Shown: piece by piece, positions 3,955 through 34,699 of the stretch
How positions within the stretch are numbered: the first letter of the stretch is position 1
How the letters are laid out: each line of letters opens with the position of its first letter
NCBI GenBank assembly: GCA_903858685.1
Contig: CAIOJR010000102.1
Coordinates: 1 to 34,865 of the forward strand
Source of the DNA: an uncultured Caulobacterales bacterium
Lineage (GTDB): Bacteria > Pseudomonadota > Alphaproteobacteria > Caulobacterales > Caulobacteraceae
Direction of reading: 5' to 3'
Length of the DNA: 34,865 nucleotides
Program-made: the position numbers and the translations under genes
The notes under the pieces: generated by a model
The model's input: only the letters and a program-made list of their open reading frames with translations
What the model was told of the DNA's origin: nothing
Databases searched by the model: none

Positions 3955-4047
3955 AGCGGTTTCCTTCGTGATGAAAGTCACGCTAGGCTTTGACGTGCGC
4001 CGGGTCCTGGGCAATCGGGCTTTCGCGAACGGGCCAACGGGTTCGCC

Positions 4048-8798: not shown

Positions 8799-8832
8799 CT
8801 GAGTCTGTCTGCCCTTCAGGTCGGTTCTGCAC

Positions 8833-8855
8833 GGCCGGGCGCTGTGCGCCCGGCC
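8833..8855 (-). repeat. Intercistronic hairpin between the acyl-CoA ligase and transporter genes
   Basis: GGCCGGGCGC (8833-8842) and GCGCCCGGCC (8846-8855) form a perfect 10-bp GC-rich stem with a 3-nt loop. Neither side carries a T-run, so a classical Rho-independent terminator is unlikely. Lying inside an apparent operon, it may stabilise the upstream transcript or reduce expression of the distal transporter gene. Confidence 0.75.
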
Positions 8856-8867
8856 AGATGAAGCGGA

Positions 8868-10469: not shown

Positions 10470-10560
10470 GATGGTCAATTTCCTCCAGACCGAAGTTCTG
10501 CCCCAACGTCGCGCATCGAGGTCGTTTGTTCTTGTTCTTCAGGCGCAGACTAACGCGTCT

Positions 10561-11652: not shown

Positions 11653-11666
11653 GCTGATGTGCTCCC

Positions 11667-12869: not shown

Positions 12870-13025
12870 ACCGCTTCTCTCCCTTATCATTGATCCAAGA
12901 GTAGCTCAGAGATTGGCCACGTCTAATGCAATCTTGCCATTGCCGTTGCGGCAGGCGCGCATTTCGTTGACAAGTCCGGGGTCGGGGCGCGAGCCTCCCC
13001 CGGCGCATTGGAGGCCAGAGACCGG

Positions 13026-16331: not shown

Positions 16332-16550
16332 TCACTTCAGACGATGCATCGCGTCCGAGGCAATCGGGCTGAGCCTTTGCGCCTCGCCCGCCGCGATCAT
16401 GTCCAACAGGTCGCGGCGCATGCGCGGGGCCCAGAAGTCCTTGATGTGCTGCGCTGTGTCTCGCGCGGCCAGATCGGGCGCGCCCTGAGACTGGAAAAAC
16501 GTCGCGATCTGGTTGGCCATGGTGATCAGGGTCTCGCGGGTCTGGCTCAT
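16332..16550 (-). CDS. fdsD: Formate dehydrogenase delta subunit
   Basis: The 72-residue protein matches the small FdsD subunit that helps assembly or stability of NAD-dependent Mo/W formate dehydrogenases. The core is TMANQIATFFQ, then QHIKDFWAPRMRRDLLDMIA. Its ATG overlaps the fdsA stop by 4 nt (ATGA), so the two are translationally coupled. Its position as the last fds gene is the usual order fdsG-fdsB-fdsA-(fdhD)-fdsD; here fdhD lies elsewhere, divergent from fdsG. Confidence 0.92.
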   Translation of the reverse strand: MSQTRETLITMANQIATFFQSQGAPDLAARDTAQHIKDFWAPRMRRDLLDMIAAGEAQRLSPIASDAMHRLK

Positions 16551-19381: not shown

Positions 19382-19389
19382 GATGATGC

Positions 19390-20946
19390 CTACTCCGCCG
19401 CCTTAATGGAGGCTTGCGCCCCGAAATCTTCAGGGAAATGGGTGAGCGCGCTCATCACGGGATAGGGCGTGAATCCGCCCAGCGCGCACAGCGAACCGAA
19501 TTTCATCGTTTCGCACAGGTCCTCCAGCACCGCCAGATTAGCGGCGCGATCCTGGCCCGCGATGATACGGTCCAGCGTCTCCACGCCTCGGGTCGAGCCG
19601 ATCCGGCAGGGCGTGCACTTGCCGCAGCTTTCGATGGCGCAGAATTCCATGGCGAAACGGGCCTGACGGGCCATGTCGACCCTGTCATTGAAGACCACCA
19701 CGCCGCCATGGCCGATCAGGCCGCCGCGCTCAGTGAAGGCCTCGTAGTCAAAGGGCGTGTCGAACAGTTCGCGCGGGAAATAGGCGCCCAGCGGCCCGCC
19801 CACCTGCACAGCGCGCACGGCGCGGCCGGACAGGGTTCCCCCGCCAATATCGTCCACAAGATCGCCCAGGGTCACGCCGAACGGGGTCTCGAACAGCCCG
19901 CCATTGGCGATATCGCCCGCCAGCTGGATCGGCATGGTCCCGCGAGACCGGCCGACGCCAAAGTCGCGATAGGCGTCCGCCCCATTGGCCAGAATATAGG
20001 GCGCCGCCGCCAGGGACAGCACGTTGTTGATCACGGTCGGCTGGCCGAACAGGCCCTTGTGAGCGGGCAGGGGCGGCTTGGCGCGCACCTGACCGCGCTT
20101 GCCCTCGAGGCTTTCCAGAAGCGCCGTCTCCTCGCCGCAGACATAGGCGCCCGCGCCGACCCGCACCTCGATGTCAAAAGCGAAGCGCGTTCCCGCCACG
20201 GATGCGCCCAGAAGGCCGCCGCTCCGGGCGATTTCCAGCGCGCGGTTCAACATGCGGATGGCGAAGGGATATTCCGACCTGACATAGATGAACCCCAGGC
20301 TGGCCCCGACAGCATAGCCGCAGATCGCCATGCCCTCGATCAGGGTGAAGGGGTCCGCCTCCATCAACAGCCGGTCGGCGAAGGTGCCGGAATCGCCTTC
20401 ATCGGCATTGCAGACGACGTATTTCTGAGGCGCGGCGGCCTTGGCCACGGTGTCCCATTTCAGGCCGGTGGGAAAGCCGGCGCCGCCGCGGCCGCGCAGA
20501 CCGGACTGCTTTATCAGGTCGACCACCTGAGTGGGCGTGAGGGTAGTGGCCGCTTCTATCCCCGCCAGTCCGCCATGAGCGCGATAGTCGGCAAGGCTGA
20601 GAGGGTCGATCAGCCCCGCCCGGGCAAAGGTCAGCCGGGTCTGGCGCCGGAAGAAGGGCAGGGCGTCGGGCGAACCCAGTCGCAGCCGGTGCTCCGCGCC
20701 ATCAAGCAGCCCGGCGGCGACCAGACCGGCCACGTCTGACGGATCAACCGGGCCATAGCCGATGCGTCCCTGTGGCGTGTCCACCTCCACCAGGGTTTCC
20801 AGCTCGAACGCCCCGCGAGAGCCGTTGCGCACAATCTCGATGTCGCGGCCAAGACCGTGAGCAGCGAGCGTGATGGCGCTGGCGACTTGATCTGCGCCGA
20901 CCGCGACGGCAGCCATGTCGCAGGGGATATAGACCCGCTGGCTCAT
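19390..20946 (-). CDS. fdsB: NAD-dependent formate dehydrogenase, beta subunit (NuoF-like)
   Basis: The 518-residue diaphorase subunit carries FMN and the NAD site. Residues about 1-100 are an N-terminal thioredoxin-like extension characteristic of FdsB, followed by a NuoF-type core: NADH loop GLRGRGGAGFPTGLKWD (149-165), FMN region VCNADEGDSGTFADR (178-192), and [4Fe-4S] ligands Cys441, Cys444, Cys447 and Cys487 (ESCGKCTPCRIGSTRG). It receives electrons from FdsA and reduces NAD+. ATG at 20946 overlaps the fdsG stop by 4 nt (ATGA), so the fds genes form one operon. Confidence 0.95.
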   Translation of the reverse strand: MSQRVYIPCDMAAVAVGADQVASAITLAAHGLGRDIEIVRNGSRGAFELETLVEVDTPQGRIGYGPVDPSDVAGLVAAGLLDGAEHRLRLGSPDALPFFRRQTRLTFARAGLIDPLSLADYRAHGGLAGIEAATTLTPTQVVDLIKQSGLRGRGGAGFPTGLKWDTVAKAAAPQKYVVCNADEGDSGTFADRLLMEADPFTLIEGMAICGYAVGASLGFIYVRSEYPFAIRMLNRALEIARSGGLLGASVAGTRFAFDIEVRVGAGAYVCGEETALLESLEGKRGQVRAKPPLPAHKGLFGQPTVINNVLSLAAAPYILANGADAYRDFGVGRSRGTMPIQLAGDIANGGLFETPFGVTLGDLVDDIGGGTLSGRAVRAVQVGGPLGAYFPRELFDTPFDYEAFTERGGLIGHGGVVVFNDRVDMARQARFAMEFCAIESCGKCTPCRIGSTRGVETLDRIIAGQDRAANLAVLEDLCETMKFGSLCALGGFTPYPVMSALTHFPEDFGAQASIKAAE

Positions 20947-21407
20947 GCGAGCGCCTCCGCAATCAGACGCTCAAGCCGTTCGCCGGTGAGCCGCGCCACC
21001 GGCGTCTCATTGACCAGCGCGGCGGGGCCGGAGGCGCACAGGCCAAGACAATAGATTGGCTCCAGAGCCAGCGACCCGTCCGCGCTCGCGGCGCCCAGCG
21101 TCACGCCCAGTCCCTGTTCAAGCCGCGCGGCCGTGGCGTCTGAATCCCGCGCCTGGCAGGCCTCGGCCCGGCACAGCTTGATCACCTTGCGGGCGGGCGG
21201 GGTCTGGCGGAAGTCGGCATAGAAGGTGACCACGCCGTGCACCTCGGCGCGCGTCAGGTTGAGCGCCAGCGCGATCTGCGGCACGGCGTCCTTGGGGATA
21301 AAGCCGAAAGCATGCTGAACCTGATGTAAAATGGGCAGGAGCGCACCAGGGCGGGCCGCCTGGTCGGCCAAAATCGCCTGAAGCGTCGCTATCTCTTCGT
21401 CCCGCAA
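20943..21407 (-). CDS. fdsG: NAD-dependent formate dehydrogenase, gamma subunit (NuoE-like)
   Basis: The 154-residue subunit holds one [2Fe-2S] cluster through Cys79, Cys84, Cys120 and Cys124 (CRAEAC, then CLGLC), as in NuoE. The conserved LPILHQVQHAFGFIP and AEVHGVVTFYADF segments are intact. I place the start at a TTG (21407) because GGGAG lies 6 nt upstream and residues from RDEEIATLQ onward match the family. A longer TTG start at 21458 would add 17 unconserved, Arg/Trp-rich residues and would begin inside an inverted repeat. First gene of the fds operon, divergent from fdhD. Confidence 0.9.
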   Translation of the reverse strand: MRDEEIATLQAILADQAARPGALLPILHQVQHAFGFIPKDAVPQIALALNLTRAEVHGVVTFYADFRQTPPARKVIKLCRAEACQARDSDATAARLEQGLGVTLGAASADGSLALEPIYCLGLCASGPAALVNETPVARLTGERLERLIAEALA

Positions 21408-21521: not shown

Positions 21522-22379
21522 ATGGCGACCGCGCCGGATGAAGCCGTCTACAATCCGGTGCTGAGACTTGCGTCCGACGCATGGCGCGACGGTGAATGGC
21601 GCAGGGTCGAACGGACAACGGCTGAAGAAGCGCCGGTGGCGCTGGTCTATGACGGCGCGACCGAGGCCGTCATGATGGCGACCCCGGCCGATCTGGAAGA
21701 CTTCGCCCTGGGCTTCAGTCTGAATGAGGGTCTGATCGCGACCCATGCGGATGTTCGGGCCATGCAGATCGCGCCGGGAGTTGACGGGATTGAAGCCCGT
21801 ATCTGGCTGACCCAGCCGCGCGGCGCGGATCTGTCGGCGCGACGCCGCACGCGCGCCGGGCCCACGGGCTGCGGCCTGTGCGGGGTGGACAGTCTGGCCG
21901 AAGCCAACCGCATGCGCTCGCGCATCGATTCGTCCATCGATTTCAAACTGACGGCGGGCGAGGTGCAGGCGGCCATGGCCAGTCTGGACGCAGCTCAGCC
22001 GCTGGGCGAGGCGACCCGCGCCGTCCATGCCGCCGGGTTCTGGACGCCTGCCCTGGGACTGGTCGCCGTGCGGGAGGATGTCGGGCGCCACAATGCCCTG
22101 GACAAGCTGGCGGGCGCATTGGCGCGACAGGGCGTTGCGCCCGCGCAGGGCGTGGTGCTTCTGACCAGCCGCGTGTCGGTGGAGATGGTGCAGAAGGTCG
22201 CGGCCATGGGCGCAACCGTGCTGATCGCCATATCCGCCCCAACCGCCCTGGCGATCCGCACAGCGAGCGCAGCAGGCCTGACCCTGATCGCCGTGGCGCG
22301 ACGAGACGGGTTCGAGGTCTTCACCGTGCCTCGGCGCATATTGGCGGAACCCATTCCGCACCCTAAGCTTCACACATGA
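21522..22379 (+). CDS. fdhD: Formate dehydrogenase accessory sulfurtransferase
   Basis: The 285-residue protein has the FdhD signature: Cys117 and Cys120 in TGCGLCGVDSL, plus the conserved RVHAAGFW-like AVHAAGFW, VREDVGRHNALDKLAG and LTSRVSVEMVQKVAAMGA. FdhD transfers sulfur from a cysteine desulfurase to the Mo/W-bis-MGD cofactor before insertion into formate dehydrogenase, so it is needed for FdsA activity. ATG at 21522 has CGGGAGA nearby. It runs opposite to fdsGBA-D from a shared intergenic region and overlaps the next gene by 4 nt. Confidence 0.95.
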   Translation: MATAPDEAVYNPVLRLASDAWRDGEWRRVERTTAEEAPVALVYDGATEAVMMATPADLEDFALGFSLNEGLIATHADVRAMQIAPGVDGIEARIWLTQPRGADLSARRRTRAGPTGCGLCGVDSLAEANRMRSRIDSSIDFKLTAGEVQAAMASLDAAQPLGEATRAVHAAGFWTPALGLVAVREDVGRHNALDKLAGALARQGVAPAQGVVLLTSRVSVEMVQKVAAMGATVLIAISAPTALAIRTASAAGLTLIAVARRDGFEVFTVPRRILAEPIPHPKLHT

Positions 22380-23495: not shown

Positions 23496-24344
23496 TCACG
23501 CGCCCAGAATTGTGGCGTGATGGCCGATGTGATCATCGATGAAGGTCTGGATGAAGTAATAGCCGTGGTCGTAACCGGCATGGCGGCGGACAATGACCGG
23601 ACGTCCAGAGGCGGCGGATGCGGCCTCAAGGGCTTCAGGCTTGAGTTGCTCCGCCAGGAACGGGTCGGACAGGCCCTGATCGACAAGAATGGCGGGCCCG
23701 GCAGGGGCTTTCGCCAGAAGGGCGGATGCGTCGTGAGCCGCCCAGCTTGCCGCGTCCCCGCCCAGATAGCGCGTAAACGCCTTCTGCCCCCAGGGGCAGT
23801 CCACCGGATTGGAGATGGGCGCAAAGGCGGACAGGCTCTTGTACAGGTCCGGGCGCTTCAGGCCGAGGGTGATGGCGCCATGCCCGCCCATGGAATGCCC
23901 GAACAGGCCCTGACGCGCCAGATCGACGGGGAAGTTGGCCGCGACGGCGGCCTGCAGGTCGGTGGTAATGTAGGTCTGCATCTGGAAATGCTGCGACCAA
24001 GGCGCCTGAGTGGCGTCGATATAGAAGCCCGCGCTCTGACCAAAGTCCCATTCGTCCGGCGTGTCCGGCACGCCTTCACCGCGCGGGCTGGTGTCGGGCG
24101 CGATCAGGATGACCCCGGCTTCGGCGGCGGCGCGAAAGGCGCCTGCCTTGGTCATGAATGTGTCCGGCGTGCAGGTCAGGCCCGCCAGATAGGTCAGCAC
24201 GGGGCGGGGGCCGGATTTTGCAGCTTCAGGGATAAACGTCCCGAAGGTCATGGTGGTTCCGGTCGCGGCGGAGGCGTGTTTCCAAAATCCCGCGACGCCG
24301 CCGAAACAGCCGTGCTCTGACACGCGTTGAATAGAAGCGGTCAT
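23496..24344 (-). CDS. fghA: S-formylglutathione hydrolase
   Basis: The 282-residue esterase hydrolyses S-formylglutathione to formate and glutathione. The catalytic triad is visible: Ser151 in GHSMGGHGA, Asp227 in DQGLSDPFL and His260 in GYDHGYYFIQTFIDDHIGHH. Length and the opening SEHGCFGGVAGFWKHAS match FghA/FrmB/esterase D. Its ATG shares one base with the stop of the formaldehyde dehydrogenase gene (TGATG), so the two are coupled. It completes formaldehyde oxidation to formate, which the FDS complex encoded nearby can oxidise further. Confidence 0.95.
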   Translation of the reverse strand: MTASIQRVSEHGCFGGVAGFWKHASAATGTTMTFGTFIPEAAKSGPRPVLTYLAGLTCTPDTFMTKAGAFRAAAEAGVILIAPDTSPRGEGVPDTPDEWDFGQSAGFYIDATQAPWSQHFQMQTYITTDLQAAVAANFPVDLARQGLFGHSMGGHGAITLGLKRPDLYKSLSAFAPISNPVDCPWGQKAFTRYLGGDAASWAAHDASALLAKAPAGPAILVDQGLSDPFLAEQLKPEALEAASAASGRPVIVRRHAGYDHGYYFIQTFIDDHIGHHATILGA

Positions 24345-25450
24345 CAGTAGGTCACCACGGTGCGGATGCTTTCGCCGTGATGCATGAGGTCGAAAGCCTT
24401 GTTGATGTCGCTATGGGGCAGGATGTGGGTGACCAGATCGTCGATATTGATCTTGCCGTCCATGTACCAGTCTACAATTCTGGGCACGTCGGTGCGGCCC
24501 TTGGCGCCGCCGAAGGCTGAGCCCTTCCAGACGCGGCCGGTGACCAGCTGGAACGGGCGGGTGGCGATTTCCTTGCCGGCGCCGGCGACGCCGATGATGA
24601 CGCTTTCGCCCCAGCCCCGGTGGCAGCACTCCAGCGCCTGCCGCATCACATCCACATTGCCGATGCATTCAAAGCTGTAGTCCACGCCCCATTCGGTCAG
24701 GGCCTGAATGGCGCCGACCACGTCGGGCGTGTCCTTGGGGTTGATGAAGTGGGTCATGCCGAACTGGCGGCCCAGAGCCTCACGGGCGGGGTTCAGGTCC
24801 ACGCCGATGATCATGTCTGCGCCCACCAGTCGCGCGCCCTGCACGACATTGAGGCCGATGCCGCCCAGTCCGAAGACCGCCACGGTCGAGCCGGGCCGCA
24901 CCTTGGCCGTATTGATCACCGCGCCCACGCCCGTGGTCACGCCGCAGCCGATATAGCAGATCTTGTCGAACGGCGCGTCCTTGCGCACCTTGGCGACCGC
25001 GATCTCGGGCAGGACCGTATAGTTGGAGAAGGTCGAGCAGCCCATATAGTGAAACACCGGCTTGCCCTTGTAGGAGAAGCGGCTGGTCCCGTCCGGCATG
25101 ACCCCCTTGCCCTGGGTGCCGCGAATGGCCACGCACAGATTGGTGCGGCCCGACAGACAGAACTTACAATTGCGGCATTCGGGGGTGTAGAGCGGGATGA
25201 CGTGGTCGCCGACCGCGACAGATGTCACGCCGGGCCCGACCTCGACCACCACGCCTGCGCCCTCATGGCCCAGGACCGACGGGAACAGGCCTTCCGGATC
25301 GCCGCCCGACAGGGTGAAGGCGTCAGTGTGACAAACACCGGTGGCCTTGATCTCGACCAGCACCTCGCCCGCCTTGGGGCCTTCAAGGTCGAGGGTTTCC
25401 AGAACAAGCGGCTGGCCAGCTTCAAACGCAACAGCGGCAACGGTCTTCAT
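24344..25450 (-). CDS. frmA: S-(hydroxymethyl)glutathione dehydrogenase / class III alcohol dehydrogenase
   Basis: The 368-residue zinc enzyme oxidises S-hydroxymethylglutathione, formed from formaldehyde and glutathione, to S-formylglutathione with NAD+. Catalytic zinc ligands are Cys40, His62 and Cys169; structural zinc ligands are Cys92, Cys95, Cys98 and Cys106; the NAD motif is GLGGIG at 194-199. The ATG at 25450 (AGGGAAA upstream) gives the normal family length; a longer open frame adds 41 unconserved residues. It lies 68 nt downstream of the flavin oxidase gene on the same strand, with no terminator-like hairpin seen in the gap, so it probably belongs to the Rieske operon. Confidence 0.95.
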
Positions 25451-25518
25451 GGGCGTTTCCCTGAGGGGGGTTGGATGGGCGGCGCGCAATGTCGCCGTGT
25501 TGATATGAGGGCGCGGGC

Positions 25519-26700
25519 TTAGCCGGACAGCGCCTGATCCGACGGCGCTTGCCAGCCCTTCTGGCGACGCCAATCCGGATCAAGTCCGTCGAATCTTGAC
25601 AGTTTGAGCTTGTCGATGTCGGCAAAGCTGCATTTGCCGTCCACGATCAGGTCACGCAGGGCATGGCCGGACGCAGGCGACAGGCCAAAGCCGACGCCGC
25701 TCATACTGGCCAGGGTGACATTGCCCGGGTCGTCCAGCCGGTCAAGGATCGGTCGACCATCCGGCGTGGTCTCAATGACGCCCGCCCAGCTTCTGATGAC
25801 CCGAAGGTGGGCGGCTTTCGGGAACAGGGCCGCAAGCCGCGCCGCCAGATTTCGCGCAATGGGTGTCGTCGGCCGCACCTTGGGCCCTGACAGATCAATG
25901 TTGATCCACTCATGCGGGCCGCCGCCATAGGCCAGGTTTCCTCGCGCGGTCTGGCGTCCATAGAGGCCATTGCCGTCAACGCCGCGCAGGTCCATGAGCG
26001 GGCAGGGCTCGGTGACGATCATCTCGGCGCGGGCGGGCGCCATGGGCATGGCGATGTTCAGCATCGCCGCCAGCTTGTCGCTTTGCGGGCCTGCAGCGAT
26101 CAAGACCTGATCGCAGCCCAAGGCGCCGCGCGAGGTGATGACTTCGGTGACCTTGCCGTCCACCCCGCATTTGAAGCCTGTGACCAAAGTGTTTTGAAGG
26201 ATGCGCCCTCCATGGTCCTGCAAGGCCCACGCATAGGCCTGCGCCGTTCTCTGCGGATTAGCCTGGCCGCCGGAATGGACCTTGATGCCGCCCACAGCAT
26301 TGTCGCCGGCCAGCGGGACCATGCGGCGCACATCATCGCCACTGATGTCGTCCACCCTGACGCCGTGGCGGCGAATGACGGAAGCGATATATTGGTAATA
26401 TCGATGTTGGGCTTCGTTGATGGCGAAAATGATCTTGCCAGACTGATGCTCCGTCTCATAGCCCAGCAGGTCGCGCATTTGCGGCCAGAGGCGCTGCTCC
26501 TCGGCGAACAAGGGGCTTTGGTAGTGTGAGCATCCGCCGCCATTTCGGCCTGACGCCTCCATGCCCACCACGCCCTTGTCCAGCACGAGCACGTCAACGC
26601 CGTCTCTTGCCAGCCACCATGCGGTTGAGAGGCCGGTGACGCCCGCGCCGATCACGATGACGCTGGCGCCGCGCGGTGTTTCTGTTTCCACGATCGTCAT
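25519..26700 (-). CDS. FAD-dependent oxidoreductase of the DAO family (HcnC/OoxB/sarcosine oxidase beta-like)
   Basis: The 393-residue flavoprotein has the N-terminal FAD motif [20 protein letters not shown] (Gly18, Gly20, Gly23) and the DAO segments [12 protein letters not shown] and [18 protein letters not shown] near the C-terminus, then a typical [18 protein letters not shown]. Family members oxidise glycine, sarcosine, D-amino acids, proline or opines at the C-N bond. The ATG at 26700 is one base after the stop of the upstream HcnB/OoxA-like gene. That pairing is typical of two-subunit membrane-linked oxidases (HcnBC, OoxAB, D-hydroxyproline dehydrogenase). In this operon the likely substrate is a secondary amine left by Rieske demethylation, which is inference. 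Confidence 0.85.
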
Positions 26701-26701
26701 C

Positions 26702-28186
26702 TCACCAGACCTTTGCGCCGCTGATGTAGTCCACGTGAATCGCGGCCTCGTCGGTATCGATGGTGTCGTAGGGAATCCACTGCTCCGGGATGCCGAACCA
26801 GACATCCCAGTTGGCCTTGGTCTGCGCGGTTTCCGCGGTCTCCGCCAGGACCTTGAGCGGCAGGGGGCGAACCGGCGCGCGATAACCGGCCAGAGCTATG
26901 GCGTCCAGGGGCGTCTCCGTTCCAATCGCCATGGCCATCGCCGTCTGCTCTCGGCAGCGCCGGGCTTGGCAGGGCCCCATGCAGGCGCGGGTCAGGCGTT
27001 TGATCTGGTCTTGATTGAGCGGCCCATCCTTGCGCAACCGGGTCAGGCTCTGTGCGCGCTGGGAGCTTGACGGCGCGCCAAGATATCTTGGCGGTCGGAG
27101 GTCGAGAAGGTCGCCGCGCGTGACGTCTTCGCACTGACAAAGCATGGTGTCGGACGGGGTCTGGTCCATGATCGTGCGCATCCAGTGCATTGCGCGGTCG
27201 AGGTCGGCGGCCACGCCGGTCACCTCTCCAACGGCGCGGACGCCGGGGATGGAGGTGGCGCCCGAGGCGTCGACCTGGGGCACGAAGCCTCCAAGCTGGG
27301 GCGCGCGCAGAATAGCGGCATGGGCGGCGTCCAGGAGTTCGATCTGGGGGACGAGGCCGATGGCCAGGGCGACCGTATCGCAGTCGAATGTGGTTTTTTC
27401 GCCCCCGTTCGTGCTCTGAACGACCAGGCGGGCAATCCCGTCGACCCCGCCTGTCGCTTCCACCGGGATCGTCGAGGTGAGCACCGGACAGCCGATCGCG
27501 GAGGCGCGACCTGGATCGCCTTCAATCTGGTCATGAGCCTCAATCAGCGCCACGATCCTGACGCCTCTGGACAAGGCCAGTTCAGCCAGATCAAGGGCGA
27601 GGTCGCCAGAGCCGAGGATGACGACATTGCGCCCGGCGAAGGCGTCGTAGAGGCTGAGGAGCGCGGACATTGCACGAGCGCCGACGACGCCTGGCTGGTC
27701 CCAGCCGGGGAATCCGAGCACCAGATCGCGCGCGCCCGTGGCGATAACCGCCTTGTCGAACGCCACCATCCAGGCCTTTTCCCGGTCCGCAAGGCCGATC
27801 ATGGAGGCGGGCAGGGTCTGGAGATGGGCGCCATTTGCGTAGAGGCCCCAGCAGGACACGCCCAGTTCAAGCTCTATGCCAGCCTCGATGGCGGCTTCCA
27901 GATCCGGTCGTGCGGCAAGCACCTGCTCCATCAGGCGTGCGGGATTCTGGACCGCCGCCGTGGCGCGCCCGCCGAACAAATAGGGCACGTCCAGTCCGAT
28001 CAGGCCTGGATCGAGCGGGTGTTCGTCCACCAGCAGCACAGTTGATCCGGCCTGCGCAGCTCGCATCGCCTCTGCGACACCGGCGGCGCCAGCGCCGACG
28101 ACCACCAGATCATACTTCCGCTCGGGCGTGATGTGTCGTCCGACCTGCGACCATTTGTCGAACTCATTCGGCGCTGTTGTGCTCAT
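26702..28186 (-). CDS. NAD(P)/FAD-dependent oxidoreductase with C-terminal [2Fe-2S] domain (HcnB/OoxA-like)
   Basis: The 494-residue protein has an N-terminal Rossmann FAD motif VVVGAGAAGVAEA (Gly31, Gly33, Gly36), a second dinucleotide motif VVILGSGDLALDLAELA near 188-204, and a BFD-like [2Fe-2S] region with Cys350 and Cys352 (CQCEDVT) and CMGPCQARRC (Cys402, Cys406, Cys411). This is the architecture of HcnB, OoxA and the alpha subunit of D-hydroxyproline dehydrogenase. After the usual family end near YRAPVRPLPLKVLA it carries about 45 further residues ending HVDYISGAKVW, which I do not recognise. Its ATG overlaps the PLP-enzyme stop by one base (TGATG). It most likely pairs with the DAO-type subunit encoded next. 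Confidence 0.83.
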   Translation of the reverse strand: MSTTAPNEFDKWSQVGRHITPERKYDLVVVGAGAAGVAEAMRAAQAGSTVLLVDEHPLDPGLIGLDVPYLFGGRATAAVQNPARLMEQVLAARPDLEAAIEAGIELELGVSCWGLYANGAHLQTLPASMIGLADREKAWMVAFDKAVIATGARDLVLGFPGWDQPGVVGARAMSALLSLYDAFAGRNVVILGSGDLALDLAELALSRGVRIVALIEAHDQIEGDPGRASAIGCPVLTSTIPVEATGGVDGIARLVVQSTNGGEKTTFDCDTVALAIGLVPQIELLDAAHAAILRAPQLGGFVPQVDASGATSIPGVRAVGEVTGVAADLDRAMHWMRTIMDQTPSDTMLCQCEDVTRGDLLDLRPPRYLGAPSSSQRAQSLTRLRKDGPLNQDQIKRLTRACMGPCQARRCREQTAMAMAIGTETPLDAIALAGYRAPVRPLPLKVLAETAETAQTKANWDVWFGIPEQWIPYDTIDTDEAAIHVDYISGAKVW

Positions 28187-29448
28187 CAGATGGCTTCCAG
28201 GGCCTGGGCGAAATCGTCCATCAGATCATCCGGGTGCTCGAGTCCGATCGACAGTCGCAATGTGGAGTCGTCTATGCCCACAGCTTCGCGGCGCGCCTTG
28301 TCGATCTGGTAGTGGGTGGTGGAGGCCGGGTGGCAGATCAGGCTCTCCGCCCCGCCCAGACTGACCGCCAGCTTCACAATGCGGAATCGGTCGAGCATTC
28401 GGAACGCCTCCGCCTCGCCGCCCTTGATCTTGAAGGAAAAGGTGGAGCCTGCCCCCCTGCATTGGCGGTCATAGACCGACCGCTCGCGCGATCCCTCTTC
28501 GAGAAAGCCGAAAAAGGTCACGGACTTGATTTTCGGGTGGTCTCGCAACCAGGTCGCCAGGGTGAGCGCGTTGGCGCAGGCGCGTTCGGTGCGGATATGC
28601 AGCGTCTCGAATGATCTTAGCAGCAGCCAGCAGGTATGCGGGTCGGAGTGGTTTCCCAGCATGGTCCGCAGGGTTTTCAGGGGGGCGATCAGGTCTTTGC
28701 GTCCGCTGACGCCGCCCGCCAGCAGGTCTGAATGCCCGCCGCAATATTTGGTCAGGGCGGTCATGCACAGATCCGCGCCCTGCGACAGGGGGGATTGAAG
28801 GAACGGGCCAAGGAAGGTGTTGTCGACCACCACCAATGGGCGACGGCCTTGCTTGGCGCCGACCTCCTCGGCGATCCGGACGGCGAGCCCTATGTCCGAA
28901 ATGACAGATGTGGGATTTGCCGGGGTCTCGACCAGTATGACGCCCAAGGTCCCTGCCGCCATGGCCTGCGCCGCGACCGAGCGGACATGGTCGGGGTCCG
29001 CGCCGTCTGTGTAACCGAAGCTCTGCACGCCAAATTGCGCGAAGTGGCTATTCAGGAACCAGTCGACCCCGCCATAGAGCGGCCGGCCATAGATCACCGT
29101 ATCCCCGGGCTTCAGGTTCGCCTGCAACAGGGTGGTCATGGCCGCCATGCCGGATGAAAAGACCGCAGAATCCTCGCCGCCGTCCAGCGCGGCCAGACGG
29201 GCCTCCACCATGTCCAGATTTGGGTGGCTCAACCGTGCGTAAATATATCCCGGCGTCTCGCCGCCGGGCATTTCCACGCCTTCGAAGAAGTTGGCGTGAG
29301 TGTCCTTGGCGAATTGGGCGTTGGGATAGACAAAGGTGGAGGACAGATAGAGCGGCGGCTTCGCCGCTCCAGACGCCGTGGCGGGATCGTAACCCGTGCC
29401 GATGGTGATCGTGTCCAGGCGGGCGGTCTTGGGAGGTGTCGCGGCCAT
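28186..29448 (-). CDS. Cystathionine gamma-synthase-family PLP enzyme
   Basis: The 420-residue fold-type I PLP enzyme belongs to the Cys/Met-metabolism family (gamma-synthases, gamma- and beta-lyases). Visible features are Tyr70 and Arg72 (YARLSHPN, phosphate contact from the neighbouring subunit), SSGMAA at 98-103, Tyr125 stacking on PLP, Asp209 (VVVDNTF) and the Schiff-base Lys234 in ALTKYCGGHSD. The exact reaction (gamma-replacement, gamma-elimination or other) cannot be read from sequence. The ATG at 29448 shares a base with the Rieske gene stop, and its own stop shares a base with the next ATG, so the gene is embedded in the demethylation operon rather than a methionine operon. Confidence 0.85.
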   Translation of the reverse strand: MAATPPKTARLDTITIGTGYDPATASGAAKPPLYLSSTFVYPNAQFAKDTHANFFEGVEMPGGETPGYIYARLSHPNLDMVEARLAALDGGEDSAVFSSGMAAMTTLLQANLKPGDTVIYGRPLYGGVDWFLNSHFAQFGVQSFGYTDGADPDHVRSVAAQAMAAGTLGVILVETPANPTSVISDIGLAVRIAEEVGAKQGRRPLVVVDNTFLGPFLQSPLSQGADLCMTALTKYCGGHSDLLAGGVSGRKDLIAPLKTLRTMLGNHSDPHTCWLLLRSFETLHIRTERACANALTLATWLRDHPKIKSVTFFGFLEEGSRERSVYDRQCRGAGSTFSFKIKGGEAEAFRMLDRFRIVKLAVSLGGAESLICHPASTTHYQIDKARREAVGIDDSTLRLSIGLEHPDDLMDDFAQALEAI

Positions 29449-30680
29449 CAGTTCGCCGCCTCGACGACGGATCCAGCGCATTTGTCCAGAAACTCGCGCG
29501 CCTTGTCACAGTACCAATCAATGAAGCGGATCACCAAGACTTCAGCCTCTTCACTATAGGGCCCCGGACGGTAGCCCGCGCCATTAACGCCGCGTTGGTT
29601 GTTCTCGACCAGATCACGGTCTTGCAGGTTTGTTGTGTTCCACAGCTCGGTCAGTGCGTCTATGTGATAGTCTACGCCCTCTACGGCGTCACCGTGGACC
29701 AGCCATTTGGCGGTGACGATCGTCTCTGACGGGCTGATCGGCTCTGCGGTGAAGATCAGGACATAGTCGCCCACGGCATGGCAAAAATTGTTGGGTTCAA
29801 GCGCCCAGCGGAGCGAGCCGATATCGAGGTCCCCCGTGTCCGTCATCGGCCTGTTCACGAGCGGCGCGCCATCCATCGACATGGACTGGAAGCCTTCGTT
29901 CAGGGGGAAGCGTATCGCCTGCCACCAGTCGCCGTCGGAAGGGCCGATCGGAAGGCCCAGTTTCGCCATCCGAGCCTCATATTGGGCCTGGTGCGGATCT
30001 TCGCCATAGTCGAAATAGGCTTTGGCGGCGACCGGGAAGCTGCGGGCGAGTTCAGGATGGCCGGTCGAGCAGTGGTAGCATTCCCGCGCGTTTTCCATGA
30101 CCAGCTTCCAGTTGCCCTTCTCAACAAGGGTCGCCTCCGCCGCCAGTTTCGCGCTCGCCAGGTTGTGAGGGCCAAGCAGGGGTTCGATCGCCTGGCGAAA
30201 GGGCGTGAAGTCGGGCGCGTCCTGCGACAGGCACACATAGACGACGCCCGCGGCTGTTTCGCATTTCACTGGATTGAGGGCGTAATTCGTCGCGTCAAAG
30301 TCGTCGCCCATCCGGGTGGCGCTCACCAGTTGGCCGGAGAGGTCGTAGGTCCAGCGGTGGTAAGGACAGACCAGCCGATTGGTCTTTCCCTTTCCTTCGG
30401 GGCAGATCTGCGCGCCGCGATGGCGACAGCTATTGTGAAAGGCGCGGATGTCGCCATTGCGGTCGCGCACGATGATCAGCGGGCAGCCGCCAATGGTGAC
30501 AGATACATAACTGCCTGAGCGGGGCAATTCCGCTTCTGTCGTGGCAAGCAGCCACGACCGGCCGAATATCGCCTGCAGGTCAAAGGCGAATATCTGCGGG
30601 TCGTTGTAAAGCGCCTGCGGCAGGCTGAACCCGGGCTTGCGAGCCTCAAACAAAGTTCGCACCGTATCCAGATTGTACAT
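29448..30680 (-). CDS. Rieske non-heme iron oxygenase, GbcA/CntA-like N-demethylase type
   Basis: The 410-residue oxygenase subunit has a [2Fe-2S] Rieske site (Cys85-x-His87 and Cys105-x2-His108 in CRHRGAQIC and CPYHRW). The mononuclear iron site has His203 and His208 (ECYHCSTGH), with a third acidic ligand likely around Asp354-Asp356. The bridging residue before the His pair is Glu200 rather than the Asp usual in ring dioxygenases. Glu here is characteristic of the quaternary-amine monooxygenases acting on carnitine, glycine betaine and similar compounds. The tail ENNQRGVNGAGYRPGPYS also fits that group. ATG at 30680 has AAGGAG six bases upstream. It is first in the operon and divergent from a LysR gene. 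No reductase gene is adjacent. Confidence 0.85.
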   Translation of the reverse strand: MYNLDTVRTLFEARKPGFSLPQALYNDPQIFAFDLQAIFGRSWLLATTEAELPRSGSYVSVTIGGCPLIIVRDRNGDIRAFHNSCRHRGAQICPEGKGKTNRLVCPYHRWTYDLSGQLVSATRMGDDFDATNYALNPVKCETAAGVVYVCLSQDAPDFTPFRQAIEPLLGPHNLASAKLAAEATLVEKGNWKLVMENARECYHCSTGHPELARSFPVAAKAYFDYGEDPHQAQYEARMAKLGLPIGPSDGDWWQAIRFPLNEGFQSMSMDGAPLVNRPMTDTGDLDIGSLRWALEPNNFCHAVGDYVLIFTAEPISPSETIVTAKWLVHGDAVEGVDYHIDALTELWNTTNLQDRDLVENNQRGVNGAGYRPGPYSEEAEVLVIRFIDWYCDKAREFLDKCAGSVVEAAN

Positions 30681-30745
30681 CGTCACTCCTTGCGTCGTCG
30701 CAAAAGATGGCACGCCATTCGGCTCCGGTCGCAATCGTATTTCTG

Positions 30746-30755
30746 CATAGCGCTA
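30746..30755. promoter_or_regulatory. Palindrome ATAGCGCTAT upstream of the Rieske gene
   Basis: A perfect 10-bp palindrome lies 66-75 nt upstream of the Rieske ATG. The same core occurs in the 12-bp palindrome before the RcnB-like gene at 23381-23392. It may be an operator for a repressor shared by the two units, or a chance match. Confidence 0.45.
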
Positions 30756-30800
30756 TCGCGTTTTGAAGATTCGGCGACGAGGGCTGCGACGGTGCGACGA

Positions 30801-30876: not shown

Positions 30877-31827
30877 ATGAACATCAATCGGCGCTGGCTA
30901 CCGCTCAACGCCCTGCGCGCTTTTGAAGCCGTGGGACAGAACCTCAGCTTCACGGCGGCGGCGCAAGCCTTGCACGTCAGCCAGAGCGCGCTGAGCCGCC
31001 ACGTGATCAGCCTGGAGGAGTTGTTGGGCCGCCAGTTGCTGGAGCGTCGCTCAAACGGTCTGGTGCTGACCCATGCCGGCGCGTCGCTGCTGCCGGTCGT
31101 CCACAAGTCGTTTGATCGCCTCGAACAGTCCCTCAACGGCATCAGGGCCGGAGGGAAGGGGGTTCGCACGCTTCGGGTTCACCTGCCGCCCTCGCTCCTT
31201 CAACAGATGGCCTTGCCGATTTTGCAGGACTTTCGCCAGGAGTTTCCTGACATCTTGATCGATGTGTCGTCCTCCAGCGTCACCGGCCTGCCGTCGCAGG
31301 ATCTGGACGTGGCGGTGGTTTATGATCGGCCCAACTCCGACGACCGGGTCACAGATCTGTTGTGGATGGTGAGGGTGACGCCAGTCTGTTCCCCTCAGGT
31401 TCGGGAACGCAATCAGGGTAAATCATTGTCGGAGTTCATCGCCGGCAATGAACTCCTGCATGTGAAGCTTGACGGAGAGCCGCGCGGACTTTTGTGGTCG
31501 AATTACGTGAAGCAATGTGGGATCGCCGCGGACACCGATCGCGGCCTGGCCTTCGATACAGCAATTTCAGCGGTGCAATATGCTATTGCCGGGGGGGGCG
31601 TGGCGTTGGCCGATGTAGACATGTTCGCGCCGGAACTTGAAAATGAGAAACTGGTCCAGCCCTATAGCGAGGTCTTCGCGGATGGTTTTGGGTACTATTT
31701 GAAATTCCACGCCGAAGATCTGTCGGATCCGGTGATCGCATTGTTCCGCAGGTGGATGATCTCACGTTTTTCGCAACAAATGCCCGTTCGCGCGGCAACG
31801 CTGCTCGGCGCCGCCACCCAGCCCTAG
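30877..31827 (+). CDS. LysR-family transcriptional regulator (GcvA-like)
   Basis: The 316-residue protein has an N-terminal winged helix-turn-helix (LNALRAFEAVGQNLSFTAAA, then LHVSQSALSRHVISLEELLG, about residues 8-50) and a LysR substrate-binding domain (about 90-300). The WLPLNALRAFEAVGQNLSFT opening is GcvA-like. The ATG at 30877 aligns with the family start; an open frame continues 38 codons upstream but is Arg/Cys-rich and unlikely. It is divergent from the Rieske operon across 196 nt containing LysR-type dyads, so it probably controls that operon in response to its substrate or an intermediate. Confidence 0.92.
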   Translation: MNINRRWLPLNALRAFEAVGQNLSFTAAAQALHVSQSALSRHVISLEELLGRQLLERRSNGLVLTHAGASLLPVVHKSFDRLEQSLNGIRAGGKGVRTLRVHLPPSLLQQMALPILQDFRQEFPDILIDVSSSSVTGLPSQDLDVAVVYDRPNSDDRVTDLLWMVRVTPVCSPQVRERNQGKSLSEFIAGNELLHVKLDGEPRGLLWSNYVKQCGIAADTDRGLAFDTAISAVQYAIAGGGVALADVDMFAPELENEKLVQPYSEVFADGFGYYLKFHAEDLSDPVIALFRRWMISRFSQQMPVRAATLLGAATQP

Positions 31828-32227
31828 GTCGGCGATCCCAAATACAGATGCGGCCATCGGAAAATGGCATGGGGCGGCGCCCGCGGCCGATATTTTCTGA
31901 TCTTGCGACATGTCAAATTTCCAACGGCAGAAAGCGACATGCAGTCGCAAATGCGATTCAGGATTTTACAAAAAGCTTTTAAAACAACATTTTGAAGGAA
32001 ATGTTTCAGCGCGGGGCAGGCGCTTTGGGCGCGCATTTGCGCCAAATATTTCATCGAATTTGGTTAGAAATTTTTACCAACCATCTAAAATTGGTCAATA
32101 GAGGGCCGTATTGCCGAACCCAGCCCTTTGACCTCTCATCGCAAATGCAATGGCGCCAGACGTGCGACCGCGCCGACCGTTAGGTGGCGGAGGAACGCAC
32201 GCTGGTAGCCGACTTTGGGGGATCGGC
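31828..32227. other. 400-nt intergenic region before the TonB-dependent receptor
   Basis: I see no convincing gene here. The middle and right part is clearly more AT-rich than its surroundings. It contains several dyads: GACATGTC (31907-31914), GCGAC-N5-GTCGC (31934-31948), the run AAAAGCTTTT (31971-31980), AACATTT-N6-AAATGTT (31986-32005) and TTGGT-N11-ACCAA (32060-32080), followed by another TTGGT at 32091. A weak hairpin with a short T-run (CGGCC at 31851 pairing with GGCCG at 31885, then TATTTT) could end the LysR transcript. The rest is probably the receptor promoter and its operators. Confidence 0.55.
32060..32080. promoter_or_regulatory. Dyad TTGGT-N11-ACCAA upstream of the TonB-dependent receptor
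   Basis: Five-base inverted arms flank an AT-rich 11-nt spacer, so the inner T and A form a T-N11-A pattern typical of LysR-type boxes. It lies 148-168 nt upstream of the receptor ATG. The half-site differs from the dyad beside the LysR gene, so shared control is only a possibility. Confidence 0.4.
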
Positions 32228-34699
32228 ATGACGAAACATAATCTCAGTTTATCCACGGCCGTCGTGGCCTTGGCGATTTTCGGTGCAGGCGCGACGGGGG
32301 TCAGCGCGGCGGATGTGTCCGCCAAACCTGCCGATACATCAGCGACAACGGTTCAGGATCTCATCGTGACGGCTTCGCGTCGCGACGAAAAGCTTCAGGA
32401 CGTGCCGATCGCGCTTGACGCCTTTGGCGGCAAGGCGCTCCAGCAACTGGGCATCACCAATTTCGAGCAGCTCTTGCTCAGCTTGCCGGACGTGCACGCC
32501 GCTGGCCGCGGTCCGGGGCAGAACAGCGTCTATATTCGTGGCCTGTCGACCGACACCGCCTCCATTCTGATCGGCGGCGCAGCCGGCACCAATCCCAATG
32601 TCGCCATCTATTTGGACGACATCGCTGTATCCATGCCCGTGCGCAACCTGGACATCTACGCGGTGGATCTTGACCGGGTTGAAGTGCTGAAGGGGCCGCA
32701 GGGAACCACATTCGGCGCCAGTTCGATGGGCGGCGCGGTGCGCTACATCACCGCCAAGCCGAACCTCTCCGACTTCCATTATGGTTTCTCGACCAGCTAT
32801 TCCGAAAACGCCAAGGGCGGCGACAGCTCGTCGGCCAATGGTTATGTCAACCTGCCGATCATAAAGGACAAATTCGCCGTTCGCCTGGTGGCCTATTCCG
32901 ACAACCAGGGCGGATATATCGACAATGTCGCGGGCACTTACCAGATGCCCGTCACCAGCCCCGGTTTCGGCGGCAATTCATGGGCGGCGTCGATCTCCCG
33001 CCCCATCGTCGACAATTCAACCCTGGTCAAAAAGAACTTCAACACCGCTGACTACAAGGGCTTCCGGGTCGCGGCCAAATACCAGATCAATGAAAACTGG
33101 AGCGTCGAAGTTCAGGATCTGACCCAGTCGCTGAACACCGAAGGGGTCTTCGACTATGATCCTACGCTGGGCGATTTGAAGGCGAAGCGGTTCAACCCGG
33201 ACAATCTGGCCGATAAGGGCAATGTTCTGGAGTGGAATGTGAACGGCCGGTTGGGGCAACTCGATCTGGTCTATACAGGCGGCTATGTCGAGCGCCGCGC
33301 GGTCCAGAACACCGACTATACCGCCTATTCCAATTCCGGCGGCTATGCAGTGTACTACAATTGTAATTACGCAGTTTATCACGCTGTGGCCTACAAGCAG
33401 GCGCCTGCGGCCGGGGCGGCTTGTTTCTCGCCCAAGAACCACGTGCACAATGACACCCGCAACACCCGCTTGACCGAGGAGCTTCGCATTTCAACGCCCA
33501 GCGACTGGCGTTTGCGCGGCAGCGCCGGGGTCTATTACGACACTGACCACGTCTATGATCAGGACGAGTTCGCCTATGAAGGGTCGAGCGCCGGCGCGGG
33601 TTTCCCAGGGGCCAATGAACCCTTCTCCACCGCCACGGCGATCAACCGCTACATCACGGATCCGAGCGTCCAGTTCGTCAATGATGTGACCCGCAGGGAT
33701 CGCCAATATGCGGTCTATGGCGAAGCCGCCTATGACATCATACCCAAGAAGCTGACGGCCAGCATCGGCCTGCGCTACTACGACCAACAGGTTGGAATTG
33801 CAGGCTCCGCCAGCTATGGCAGCCGTTTCAGCCAGAGCGCAGATCACGGGATTTCGTTGCAAAACTACGCTCCGGTCACCGAAACCGGCGTGATTCCGAA
33901 GCTTAACCTGACCTATCACGCCACAGACGACGTGATGATCTATGGCACCTATTCTGAAGGCTTCCGTCCCGGCGGGTTCAATCGTGGCGGCGGGAACGTC
34001 AACTCCAAGACCGGGTTTGTCGTGCCTGTGGGTTACGGGACGGACTCGGTGAAGAACTATGAACTGGGCTGGAAAACCCAGTGGCTTGACCGCACCCTGA
34101 CCCTGAACGGCGCAGCCTATTTCATCCAGTGGGACAAGTTGCAGTCACAGATCTACCGTCCGGCGGACAGCTTCCTGACCTTTGTGCAAAACGCCGCCAA
34201 TGCCGAGATCAAGGGACTGGAAACGGATGCGATCTGGCGGCCCGTTCACGGGCTGAGCCTCAGCGCAAATGTGGCCTATACGCACAGCGAGCTGACCTCG
34301 ATCCTGCCCGGCATCAGCAATCTGCGCCCGGTGGGCAGCCAGCTGGCCTTGACGCCGGAACTGCAGGGAACCTTCGTGGCCCGTTACGAGCATGAGTTCG
34401 TTCCGGAATATACGAGCTTCTTCCAGGGCACGGCGACAGCGGCGGGCCGTATGCTCTCCACCATTGACCGGGGCGCGGACACGACCGGTACGCCCTTGCA
34501 TAACGATATCGAGCTTCATCCCTACACGACGGGCGCAATCTCGGCGGGTGTGATGAAGGACGGCTGGACGGTGGAACTGTTCGTCAACAATGTAACGGAT
34601 GCGCGTCCGGAACTTTACGCCAATGCCTCGGACCGGACCCTTCGGTACACCACCACGCCGCCGCGCACGGTGGGCGTCCGGTTCTCCGCCAAGTACTAG
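32228..34699 (+). CDS. TonB-dependent outer-membrane receptor
   Basis: The 823-residue protein begins with a signal peptide (MTKHNLSLSTAVVALAIFGA, cleaved near VSAAD) and a TonB-box/plug entry TVQDLIVTASRRDEKLQDVP. The plug includes NSVYIRGLS and VEVLKGPQGTTFGASSMGGA, and the beta-barrel has the receptor motifs TYSEGFRPGGFNRGG and VKNYELGWKTQ before the C-terminal strand RTVGVRFSAKY. It imports a ligand too large or scarce for porins, using TonB energy. The ATG at 32228 (GGGGGAT upstream) opens the signal peptide; a longer frame adds 26 unlikely residues. Given the LysR gene and Rieske operon next door, it may import their substrate. A strong terminator follows. Confidence 0.93.
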   Translation: MTKHNLSLSTAVVALAIFGAGATGVSAADVSAKPADTSATTVQDLIVTASRRDEKLQDVPIALDAFGGKALQQLGITNFEQLLLSLPDVHAAGRGPGQNSVYIRGLSTDTASILIGGAAGTNPNVAIYLDDIAVSMPVRNLDIYAVDLDRVEVLKGPQGTTFGASSMGGAVRYITAKPNLSDFHYGFSTSYSENAKGGDSSSANGYVNLPIIKDKFAVRLVAYSDNQGGYIDNVAGTYQMPVTSPGFGGNSWAASISRPIVDNSTLVKKNFNTADYKGFRVAAKYQINENWSVEVQDLTQSLNTEGVFDYDPTLGDLKAKRFNPDNLADKGNVLEWNVNGRLGQLDLVYTGGYVERRAVQNTDYTAYSNSGGYAVYYNCNYAVYHAVAYKQAPAAGAACFSPKNHVHNDTRNTRLTEELRISTPSDWRLRGSAGVYYDTDHVYDQDEFAYEGSSAGAGFPGANEPFSTATAINRYITDPSVQFVNDVTRRDRQYAVYGEAAYDIIPKKLTASIGLRYYDQQVGIAGSASYGSRFSQSADHGISLQNYAPVTETGVIPKLNLTYHATDDVMIYGTYSEGFRPGGFNRGGGNVNSKTGFVVPVGYGTDSVKNYELGWKTQWLDRTLTLNGAAYFIQWDKLQSQIYRPADSFLTFVQNAANAEIKGLETDAIWRPVHGLSLSANVAYTHSELTSILPGISNLRPVGSQLALTPELQGTFVARYEHEFVPEYTSFFQGTATAAGRMLSTIDRGADTTGTPLHNDIELHPYTTGAISAGVMKDGWTVELFVNNVTDARPELYANASDRTLRYTTTPPRTVGVRFSAKY

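Follow-up and report, generated by a model that had tools for sequence, protein, structure and literature searches.

Contig CAIOJR010000102.1, a 34,865-nucleotide stretch that was analyzed whole and is here called the window, is contig C102 of the 3.87-Mb draft genome (G000) of an uncultured Caulobacterales bacterium. It carries a four-gene cassette encoding a Rieske non-haem iron oxygenase, a Cys/Met-type pyridoxal phosphate (PLP) enzyme, and two flavoprotein subunits related to HcnB and HcnC, followed by the formaldehyde oxidation genes frmA and fghA. We propose that the cassette catabolises an N,N,N-trimethyl α-amino acid with a γ leaving group, most likely O-glyceryl-N,N,N-trimethylhomoserine, the deacylated head group of the lipid diacylglyceryl-N,N,N-trimethylhomoserine (DGTS); judged from gene families and gene order, this assignment has about an even chance of being correct. 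Similarly balanced, in our estimation, is the chemistry that would follow, a bacterial dismantling of the DGTS head group in which three N-demethylations unmask the amine and a PLP γ-lyase then cuts the otherwise inert glyceryl ether, with oxidation of the formaldehyde and formate encoded in the same block.

A genome collection gave 574 confirmed related loci, and the best 80, which are alphaproteobacterial, were compared, with genes counted by tblastn. The Rieske, PLP, HcnB, and HcnC genes were all present in the same order, on one strand and within 7.5 kb, in 60 of these loci, and in each of the 60 the PLP gene lay between the Rieske and HcnB genes; with such conservation, the four-gene arrangement is more than chance. 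Thirteen of the 20 incomplete loci were cut by contig ends, as read from their positions, and a LysR homologue was found in 58 of the 80. The cassette is uncommon: a match to HcnC at an E value of 1e-100 was obtained for 6 of 398 genomes sampled from the phylum, its own genome included, and for 24 of 397 sampled from another family, which we take to be the Sphingomonadaceae. Named strains bearing the cassette occur in Novosphingobium, Sphingomonas, Ancylobacter, and Acidisoma; 23 further Sphingomonadaceae loci, several of them on the same contigs as the 80, were kept out of the counts. The first-pass annotation of the window had described a six-gene operon. Its six open reading frames (ORFs) are open on the minus strand, and the junctions proved correct on rereading. 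Neighboring genes overlap by one base, as TGATG, at 29448, 28186, and 24344; they are separated by a single base at 26701 and by 68 nt at 25451-25518. All six genes are present, but the conserved unit consists of the first four, and frmA and fghA were seen directly behind it only in this genus.

The Rieske protein scored over the cut-offs of PF00355 and PF00848. Its [2Fe-2S] motif (C85-x-H87 and C105-x2-H108), the predicted iron ligands H203, H208, and D354, and a glutamate in place of aspartate at the bridging position, E200, which the first-pass annotation had assumed, predict a member of the GbcA/Stc2/CntA-type quaternary-amine N-demethylases. The best PDB matches were 3n0q, 3vca, and 4qup (383 to 385 bits). 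The entries 3vca and 4qup, named 'Ring-hydroxylating dioxygenase' and 'Monoxygenase; demethylase', are presumably the stachydrine demethylase Stc2; the similarity to them extends over the full length (383 bits), and the alignment shows the same bridging Glu motif. Among NCBIfam models, the GbcA model NF058607 was the best, at 438.9 bits, below its cut-off of 670. In a tree from which a 330-residue filter removed none of the 80 loci, 71 PLP-linked Rieske sequences, the window's included, and 11 others formed a group of 82 with a support of 0.69. GbcA-like paralogues, an S. meliloti Stc-type enzyme, and the enzymes of Paracoccus and Ancylobacter polymorphus (support 0.97 for that group) fell outside. 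The S. meliloti Rieske protein, whose gene adjoins one annotated stc4, shows 46% identity, but it groups with the GbcA-like paralogues and has no PLP enzyme beside it. No reductase gene that could provide the electron donor lies within the six-gene operon. The sole strong GbcB-like match of the genome was found on contig C40, beside a second Rieske gene (364 bits, below the cut-off of 500), and a GbcB-type reductase gene is situated between the Rieske and PLP genes in 5 of the 60 complete loci; the two of these that were scored gave 213 and 234 bits against the same cut-off.

The PLP enzyme passed the PRK07049 model only marginally (cut-off 504). Three cassette enzymes, the window's among them, scored 504, 511, and 527 bits, whereas two non-cassette members encoded on plasmids scored 682 and 815; the methionine γ-lyase model TIGR01328 gave 331.5 bits, below its cut-off of 549.7. 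Of 170 plasmid records, 40 were listed; the top one among these (59% identical) itself belongs to a cassette, and identity falls to 48.7% for the one that follows. Residues Y70, R72, Y125, G127, D209, K234, V362, and S363 are invariant in the aligned cassette enzymes (68 to 70 of 71 rows, the rest being gaps). The active-site Tyr, Arg, Lys, and Ser are shared with PRK07049 and methionine γ-lyase enzymes, and alignment to the P. putida methionine γ-lyase places a Val and the following Ser in common; cystathionine γ-synthases and γ-lyases presumably carry Glu at the position of this Val. The active-site Cys of methionine γ-lyase, which follows Tyr-Gly and which we number Cys116 in the P. putida enzyme, is replaced by Gly127, and Gly is found in 70 of 71 rows, with one gap. 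Cys/Met-family PLP enzymes need a primary amine as substrate, and we would therefore expect the cassette enzyme to act after the demethylations. Shared membership with the canavanine γ-lyase family was considered and found to be unsupported, no B3/4 editing gene being annotated around six non-cassette relatives. The canavanine γ-lyase route, which yields homoserine and hydroxyguanidine, is a useful chemical precedent (PMC10018355).

The two flavoproteins resemble HcnB/HcnC-type and heterotetrameric sarcosine oxidase-type amino acid dehydrogenases in their FAD subunits and SO_alpha_A3 domain; they differ from these in that no separate small ferredoxin-like gene lies between the abutting genes of the window operon. 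Further demethylase genes were counted in the 56 of 60 complete loci with at least 1.3 kb of sequence behind HcnC. A third N-demethylase gene stood beside the cassette in 51 of the 56, as a SoxBDAG-type set, denoted SoxBDAG', in 37 and as an N-methyl-amino-acid oxidase (MTOX-like) gene in 16, with both in 2. These names were assigned from single members: SoxA and SoxB of locus L115 for the one type and, for the other, the L094 and L058 oxidases, with 162 and 191 bits against an N-methyl-tryptophan oxidase cut-off of 257. As for the five loci that showed no such gene, the genome of L037 (G004) has SoxGADB' a few kilobases further on, L039 of the same genus shows only 1.75 kb behind HcnC, and L054 shows only 1.4 kb; L045 and L048 had no third demethylase in 4.7 to 6 kb. 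The SoxBDAG' of the window genome lies outside the window, on contig C40. Cassette-linked SoxA' proteins scored under the TIGR01372 cut-off of 1164 (1003 bits for L115 and 1060 to 1084 for genomes G000, G001, and G004, with 1060 for G000 on C40), while the SoxA of a separate betaine locus on C40 scored over it, at 1489 bits; by these scores the cassette-linked SoxA is a divergent subgroup, and it retains the folate-binding domain. Judged by gene family, then, the cassette is accompanied by three types of N-demethylating enzyme, as many as a trimethylated nitrogen would require. The demethylation and formaldehyde logic of the first-pass annotation is supported, but it left the PLP enzyme unexplained and missed the third demethylase.

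The placement of frmA and fghA 68 nt behind the HcnC-like gene was borne out, and both proteins scored over their model cut-offs. Outside the window, frmA-fghA directly behind HcnC was seen only in this genus, in G004 (L037) and G003 (L039), and the order HcnB-HcnC-frmA-fghA also occurs in G001 (L212). In G004 one block comprises LysR, Rieske, PLP, HcnB, HcnC, frmA, fghA, SoxGADB', FdsB, and FdsA, and G001 has the HcnB-to-FdsB part of the same block. The FDS formate dehydrogenase genes of the window, which had also been noted as nearby, lie about 2 to 7 kb downstream (about 1 to 7 kb with fdhD); the alpha subunit (TIGR01591, 939 bits) and gamma subunit (NF004638, 210.7 bits) scored over their cut-offs, and the beta subunit gave a NuoF-type match of 414 bits, under the cut-off of that model. 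Sphingorhabdus-like genomes have frmA together with fdsB/fdsA, or fdsB/fdsA alone, upstream of LysR (frmA in 4 and fdsA in 6 of the 60 complete loci). That the same functions occur with the cassette in two arrangements supports a functional link between cassette and formaldehyde oxidation. The blocks of G004 and G001, and the frmA, fdsB, and fdsA genes upstream of the same cassette in another lineage, support the earlier proposal that the operon demethylates an N-methylated compound and oxidises the resulting formaldehyde where it arises, FDS completing the oxidation to CO2.

Three demethylases together with a γ-lyase point to an N-trimethyl α-amino acid with a γ leaving group. Such acids are unusual, and among abundant natural compounds we are aware of none but the DGTS head group that fits. 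In the proposed pathway, the Rieske oxygenase, served by a GbcB-type reductase encoded elsewhere, would remove the first methyl group of the quaternary nitrogen as formaldehyde. HcnB/HcnC would then dehydrogenate the tertiary amine, with release of a second formaldehyde, and the dedicated SoxBDAG', or in other lineages the MTOX-like oxidase, would take the third methyl group. The resulting primary amine could form an aldimine with PLP, and elimination of the γ substituent would give glycerol, ammonia, and 2-oxobutyrate. FrmA and FghA would oxidise formaldehyde by way of S-formylglutathione, and FDS would convert formate to CO2. The yield would be glycerol, ammonia, 2-oxobutyrate, and three one-carbon units. 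We infer the step order, the products, and the substrate; the gene families, the synteny, the third demethylase gene, the clustering with frmA and FDS, and the presence of glpK and glpD in two loci were observed.

Two of the 60 complete loci, L050 and L110/L205, carry the glycerol genes glpK (glycerol kinase) and glpD (glycerol-3-phosphate dehydrogenase) next to the cassette. In L050 (Novosphingobium sp. Fuku2-ISO-50), a glpR-like gene, glpD, glpK, and one ORF without a Pfam match are followed by LysR, with beta-oxidation-like genes, named by eye, further upstream; in L110/L205, LysR, a gene for an AceE-like E1, glpK, and glpD are contiguous on one strand. In a glycerol kinase census of 55 cassette genomes, the L050 gene was the sole match in its genome (G538) and the L205 gene the sole full-length one without stops in G655. 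A partial glpK in L188, separated from LysR by intervening genes and a distance of about 7 kb, was left out of the count. The AceE-like E1, which resembles the homodimeric pyruvate dehydrogenase E1 at low score, was found near 12 of the 80 loci and could be a 2-oxobutyrate dehydrogenase. The mdeB gene of P. putida is reportedly a precedent for such an E1; its name was not found among the literature matches listed. TonB receptors, MFS transporters, and ProVW-type or Dpp-type transporters flank the cassette, varying by lineage. Source records include a Peltigera lichen (L057, cut by a contig end) and a bog (L048), which are compatible with sources of betaine lipids, as weak evidence.

Several observations weigh against the DGTS head group as substrate. 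Adjacency to glpK is confined to the two loci above, where an expectation calculated by hand is about 0.2 (Poisson tail, 0.018). The E1 failed as a cassette-specific marker: 18 of 24 cassette genomes have it, but so do 112 of 373 from the sampled family that lack the cassette (Fisher p of 1.5e-5, a value that ignores kinship), where two draws of 397 genomes, one for the E1 and one for the cassette, were treated as the same set. As it is common outside the cassette, the E1 is supporting evidence only. No lipase family is universal beside the cassette, and a PETase/PAF-AH-like hydrolase is found in 14 of the 60 complete loci; an alpha/beta-hydrolase-like ORF at 2977-4014 of the window was tried as the missing lipase and rejected, having no Pfam match at 1e-6 and no score above 60 bits to a PETase-like query. 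Seven of 47 cassette genomes matched PF11899, which we take to be BtaA, but never near the cassette, so that recycling of the cell's own DGTS, also considered, is not indicated; in five of the seven the contig with the gene is of a different length than that with the cassette, and in the other two more than a million bases of one contig separate gene and cassette. Seven of the 80 loci (L051, L053, L059, L061, L063, L077, and L101) have a Rieske gene without a close PLP neighbor despite room for one, the same-genus genome G005 has Rieske and PLP genes without HcnBC beside them, and L164 and L165 hold HcnB/HcnC with Sox genes and ABC transporters without a Rieske or PLP gene in the stretch examined.

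The locus on plasmid 1 of Paracoccus denitrificans PD1222 (L173) adds to these points. It resembles the cassette in its Rieske, reductase, HcnB, and HcnC genes (HcnC is 60% and the Rieske protein 43% identical) and in having genes for sarcosine oxidase alpha/gamma and for a betaine-type ABC transporter close by, but it has no PLP gene in the stretch, with MmgE/PrpD, CoA ligase, and acyl-CoA dehydrogenase genes instead. It also carries folD/purU. On plasmid pB of Ancylobacter polymorphus (L174), Rieske, reductase, HcnB, and HcnC genes likewise adjoin MmgE/PrpD and betaine ABC transporter genes, and the stretch again shows no PLP gene. Both loci apparently encode another betaine pathway with a different back end, and the Paracoccus locus suggests a demethylation front end to which different back ends for the carbon skeleton are joined.

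Generic glycine betaine catabolism has to be weighed for the cassette itself. The Rieske protein would then be GbcA, HcnBC a dimethylglycine dehydrogenase, and SoxBDAG a sarcosine oxidase, with the PLP enzyme serving an unrelated sulfur-amino-acid step. In both cases flavoprotein demethylases would take over after a Rieske-type N-demethylation; the best NCBIfam model for the Rieske protein is GbcA, five cassette loci include a GbcB-type reductase, and sarcosine oxidase-type genes lie behind the cassette in 37 of 56 loci. Two Acidiphilium loci (L074 and L081) have betA/betB-type genes (choline dehydrogenase and betaine aldehyde dehydrogenase) and ProVW-type transporter genes near the cassette, which would suit glycine betaine and count against the DGTS head group. 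On the other side, the cassette Rieske protein is under the GbcA cut-off, HcnB/HcnC replaces the DAO and GCV_T dehydrogenase, and the cassette adds a divergent SoxA', under the cut-off that the C40 SoxA exceeds, and a γ-lyase-type enzyme. The genome already carries a choline/betaine locus on contig C40 (L153/L154), comprising SoxBDAG, the second Rieske gene, the GbcB-like reductase, a protein with DAO, FAO_M, and GCV_T domains (the build of dimethylglycine dehydrogenase), and a choline-type ABC transporter, in which the binding protein (436 bits, cut-off 379) and permease (396 bits, cut-off 363) are fused in one ORF; the second set, SoxBDAG', then follows. This separate locus argues against glycine betaine as the cassette substrate. 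The second Rieske protein is also under the GbcA cut-off, at 424 bits, and the glycine betaine role of the C40 locus is therefore read from its neighbors. Glycine betaine catabolism would also leave unexplained the PLP gene between Rieske and HcnB in all 60 complete loci and the glpK and glpD genes. Owing to the C40 locus and the unexplained PLP enzyme, we regard glycine betaine as less likely than the DGTS head group, and on the whole unlikely.

Another trimethylated amino acid with a γ or β leaving group, for instance a betaine of methionine or of a different O- or S-substituted homoserine, would be served by the same enzyme logic, and the models nearest to the PLP enzyme are PRK07049 and methionine γ-lyase. 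Against such a substrate stand G127 in place of the P. putida Cys, the adjacency of glpK and glpD in two loci, and the lack, to our knowledge, of any abundant natural compound of this class other than the DGTS head group; we consider it improbable, to about the same degree as glycine betaine. A narrower doubt concerns frmA and fghA, which might be housekeeping formaldehyde genes lying behind the cassette by chance or joined to it in assembly. Contigs C40 (L154) and C200 (L155) have their right ends inside a second frmA, 99% identical to that of the window over the 119 and 190 bases that could be compared. With frmA a two-copy repeat in a draft genome, the assembly might in principle have chosen the HcnC-frmA-fghA join at that repeat, and the exact join rests on relatives. 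Moreover, frmA is within reach of only 6 of the 60 complete cassettes, 4 of them with frmA upstream, and in G005 it is elsewhere, with HcnB/HcnC not behind PLP. The same gene order in G004, G003, and G001 and the separate placement of frmA with FDS in Sphingorhabdus-like genomes make an incidental adjacency very unlikely. The C40 piece of frmA faces SoxG of the SoxBDAG' set, and no fghA lies behind it there.

Table 1. Features of the window, with the basis of each assignment
Feature	Coordinates	Strand	Basis
Rieske non-haem iron oxygenase, N-demethylase predicted to act first (on quaternary N)	29448..30680	-	PF00848/PF00355, GbcA model, PDB matches, residues, tree
Cys/Met-type PLP enzyme, predicted γ-lyase removing the γ substituent	28186..29448	-	PF01053, 327.7 bits; NF005455/PRK07049, 510.7 bits
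HcnB/OoxA-like FAD and [2Fe-2S] subunit, predicted second demethylase with HcnC	26702..28186	-	Pyr_redox_2, SO_alpha_A3; CxC at 350, CxxxC at 402
HcnC/DAO-like FAD subunit, predicted second demethylase	25519..26700	-	PF01266, 209.7 bits; 1y56_B (under the name sarcosine oxidase) as nearest PDB chain
frmA, S-(hydroxymethyl)glutathione dehydrogenase	24344..25450	-	TIGR02818, 633.7 bits (cut-off 543.95)
fghA, S-formylglutathione hydrolase	23496..24344	-	TIGR02821, 410.5 bits (cut-off 281.7)
LysR regulator (GcvA-like), divergent	30877..31827	+	HTH_1 and LysR_substrate; ORF opens at 30763, likely ATG at 30877
Candidate regulator site, LysR/Rieske intergenic region	30732..30759	-	28 bases partly conserved in an alignment of six same-genus intergenic regions
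TonB-dependent receptor adjoining LysR, candidate for substrate uptake	32150..34699	+	PF00593/PF07715
FDS formate dehydrogenase fdsG-fdsB-fdsA, predicted to convert formate to CO2	16547..21407	-	Alpha, beta, and gamma model scores
fdhD, formate dehydrogenase accessory protein	21522..22379	+	PF02634, 246.9 bits

The remaining features of the window are listed in Table 1 with the operon. TonB receptors related to the one that adjoins LysR were found by the cassette in other genomes, for example, at L043 and L159. Elsewhere in the window, two ORFs on the plus strand at 23-2969 resemble, by eye, the end of a large secreted protein with repeats and an outer-membrane transporter of the TpsB/ShlB type, as in two-partner secretion. 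An MFS_2 transporter and an AMP-dependent ligase, named by family, and two acyl-CoA dehydrogenases, named by eye, occupy the minus strand at 7344-12890 and look like a separate acyl degradation operon.

In many algae, lichens, mosses, and phosphate-starved bacteria, betaine lipids take the place of phospholipids. The literature matches listed for Rieske/γ-lyase clusters and betaine-lipid degradation contained no description of bacterial catabolism of the DGTS head group; most subscription papers and all preprints lay outside their coverage, and absence from print is not proven by this result. A 2023 review calls removal of the head group from DGTS in the manner of phosphatidylcholine 'highly improbable' owing to its structure, and cites work in which the DGTS backbone and head group turn over very little compared with the fatty acids (PMC9892843). 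What is likely to be new here, at about even odds, is the γ-lyase step and the identity of the substrate. If the assignment is true, it would provide a concrete chemistry for breakdown of the DGTS head group, in which demethylation comes first and the ether is then γ-eliminated, with the genes named. The question is testable in the named Novosphingobium, Sphingomonas, Ancylobacter, and Acidisoma strains that bear the cassette, which would also supply a marker gene set for the flux of betaine-lipid head-group carbon and nitrogen in the environment.

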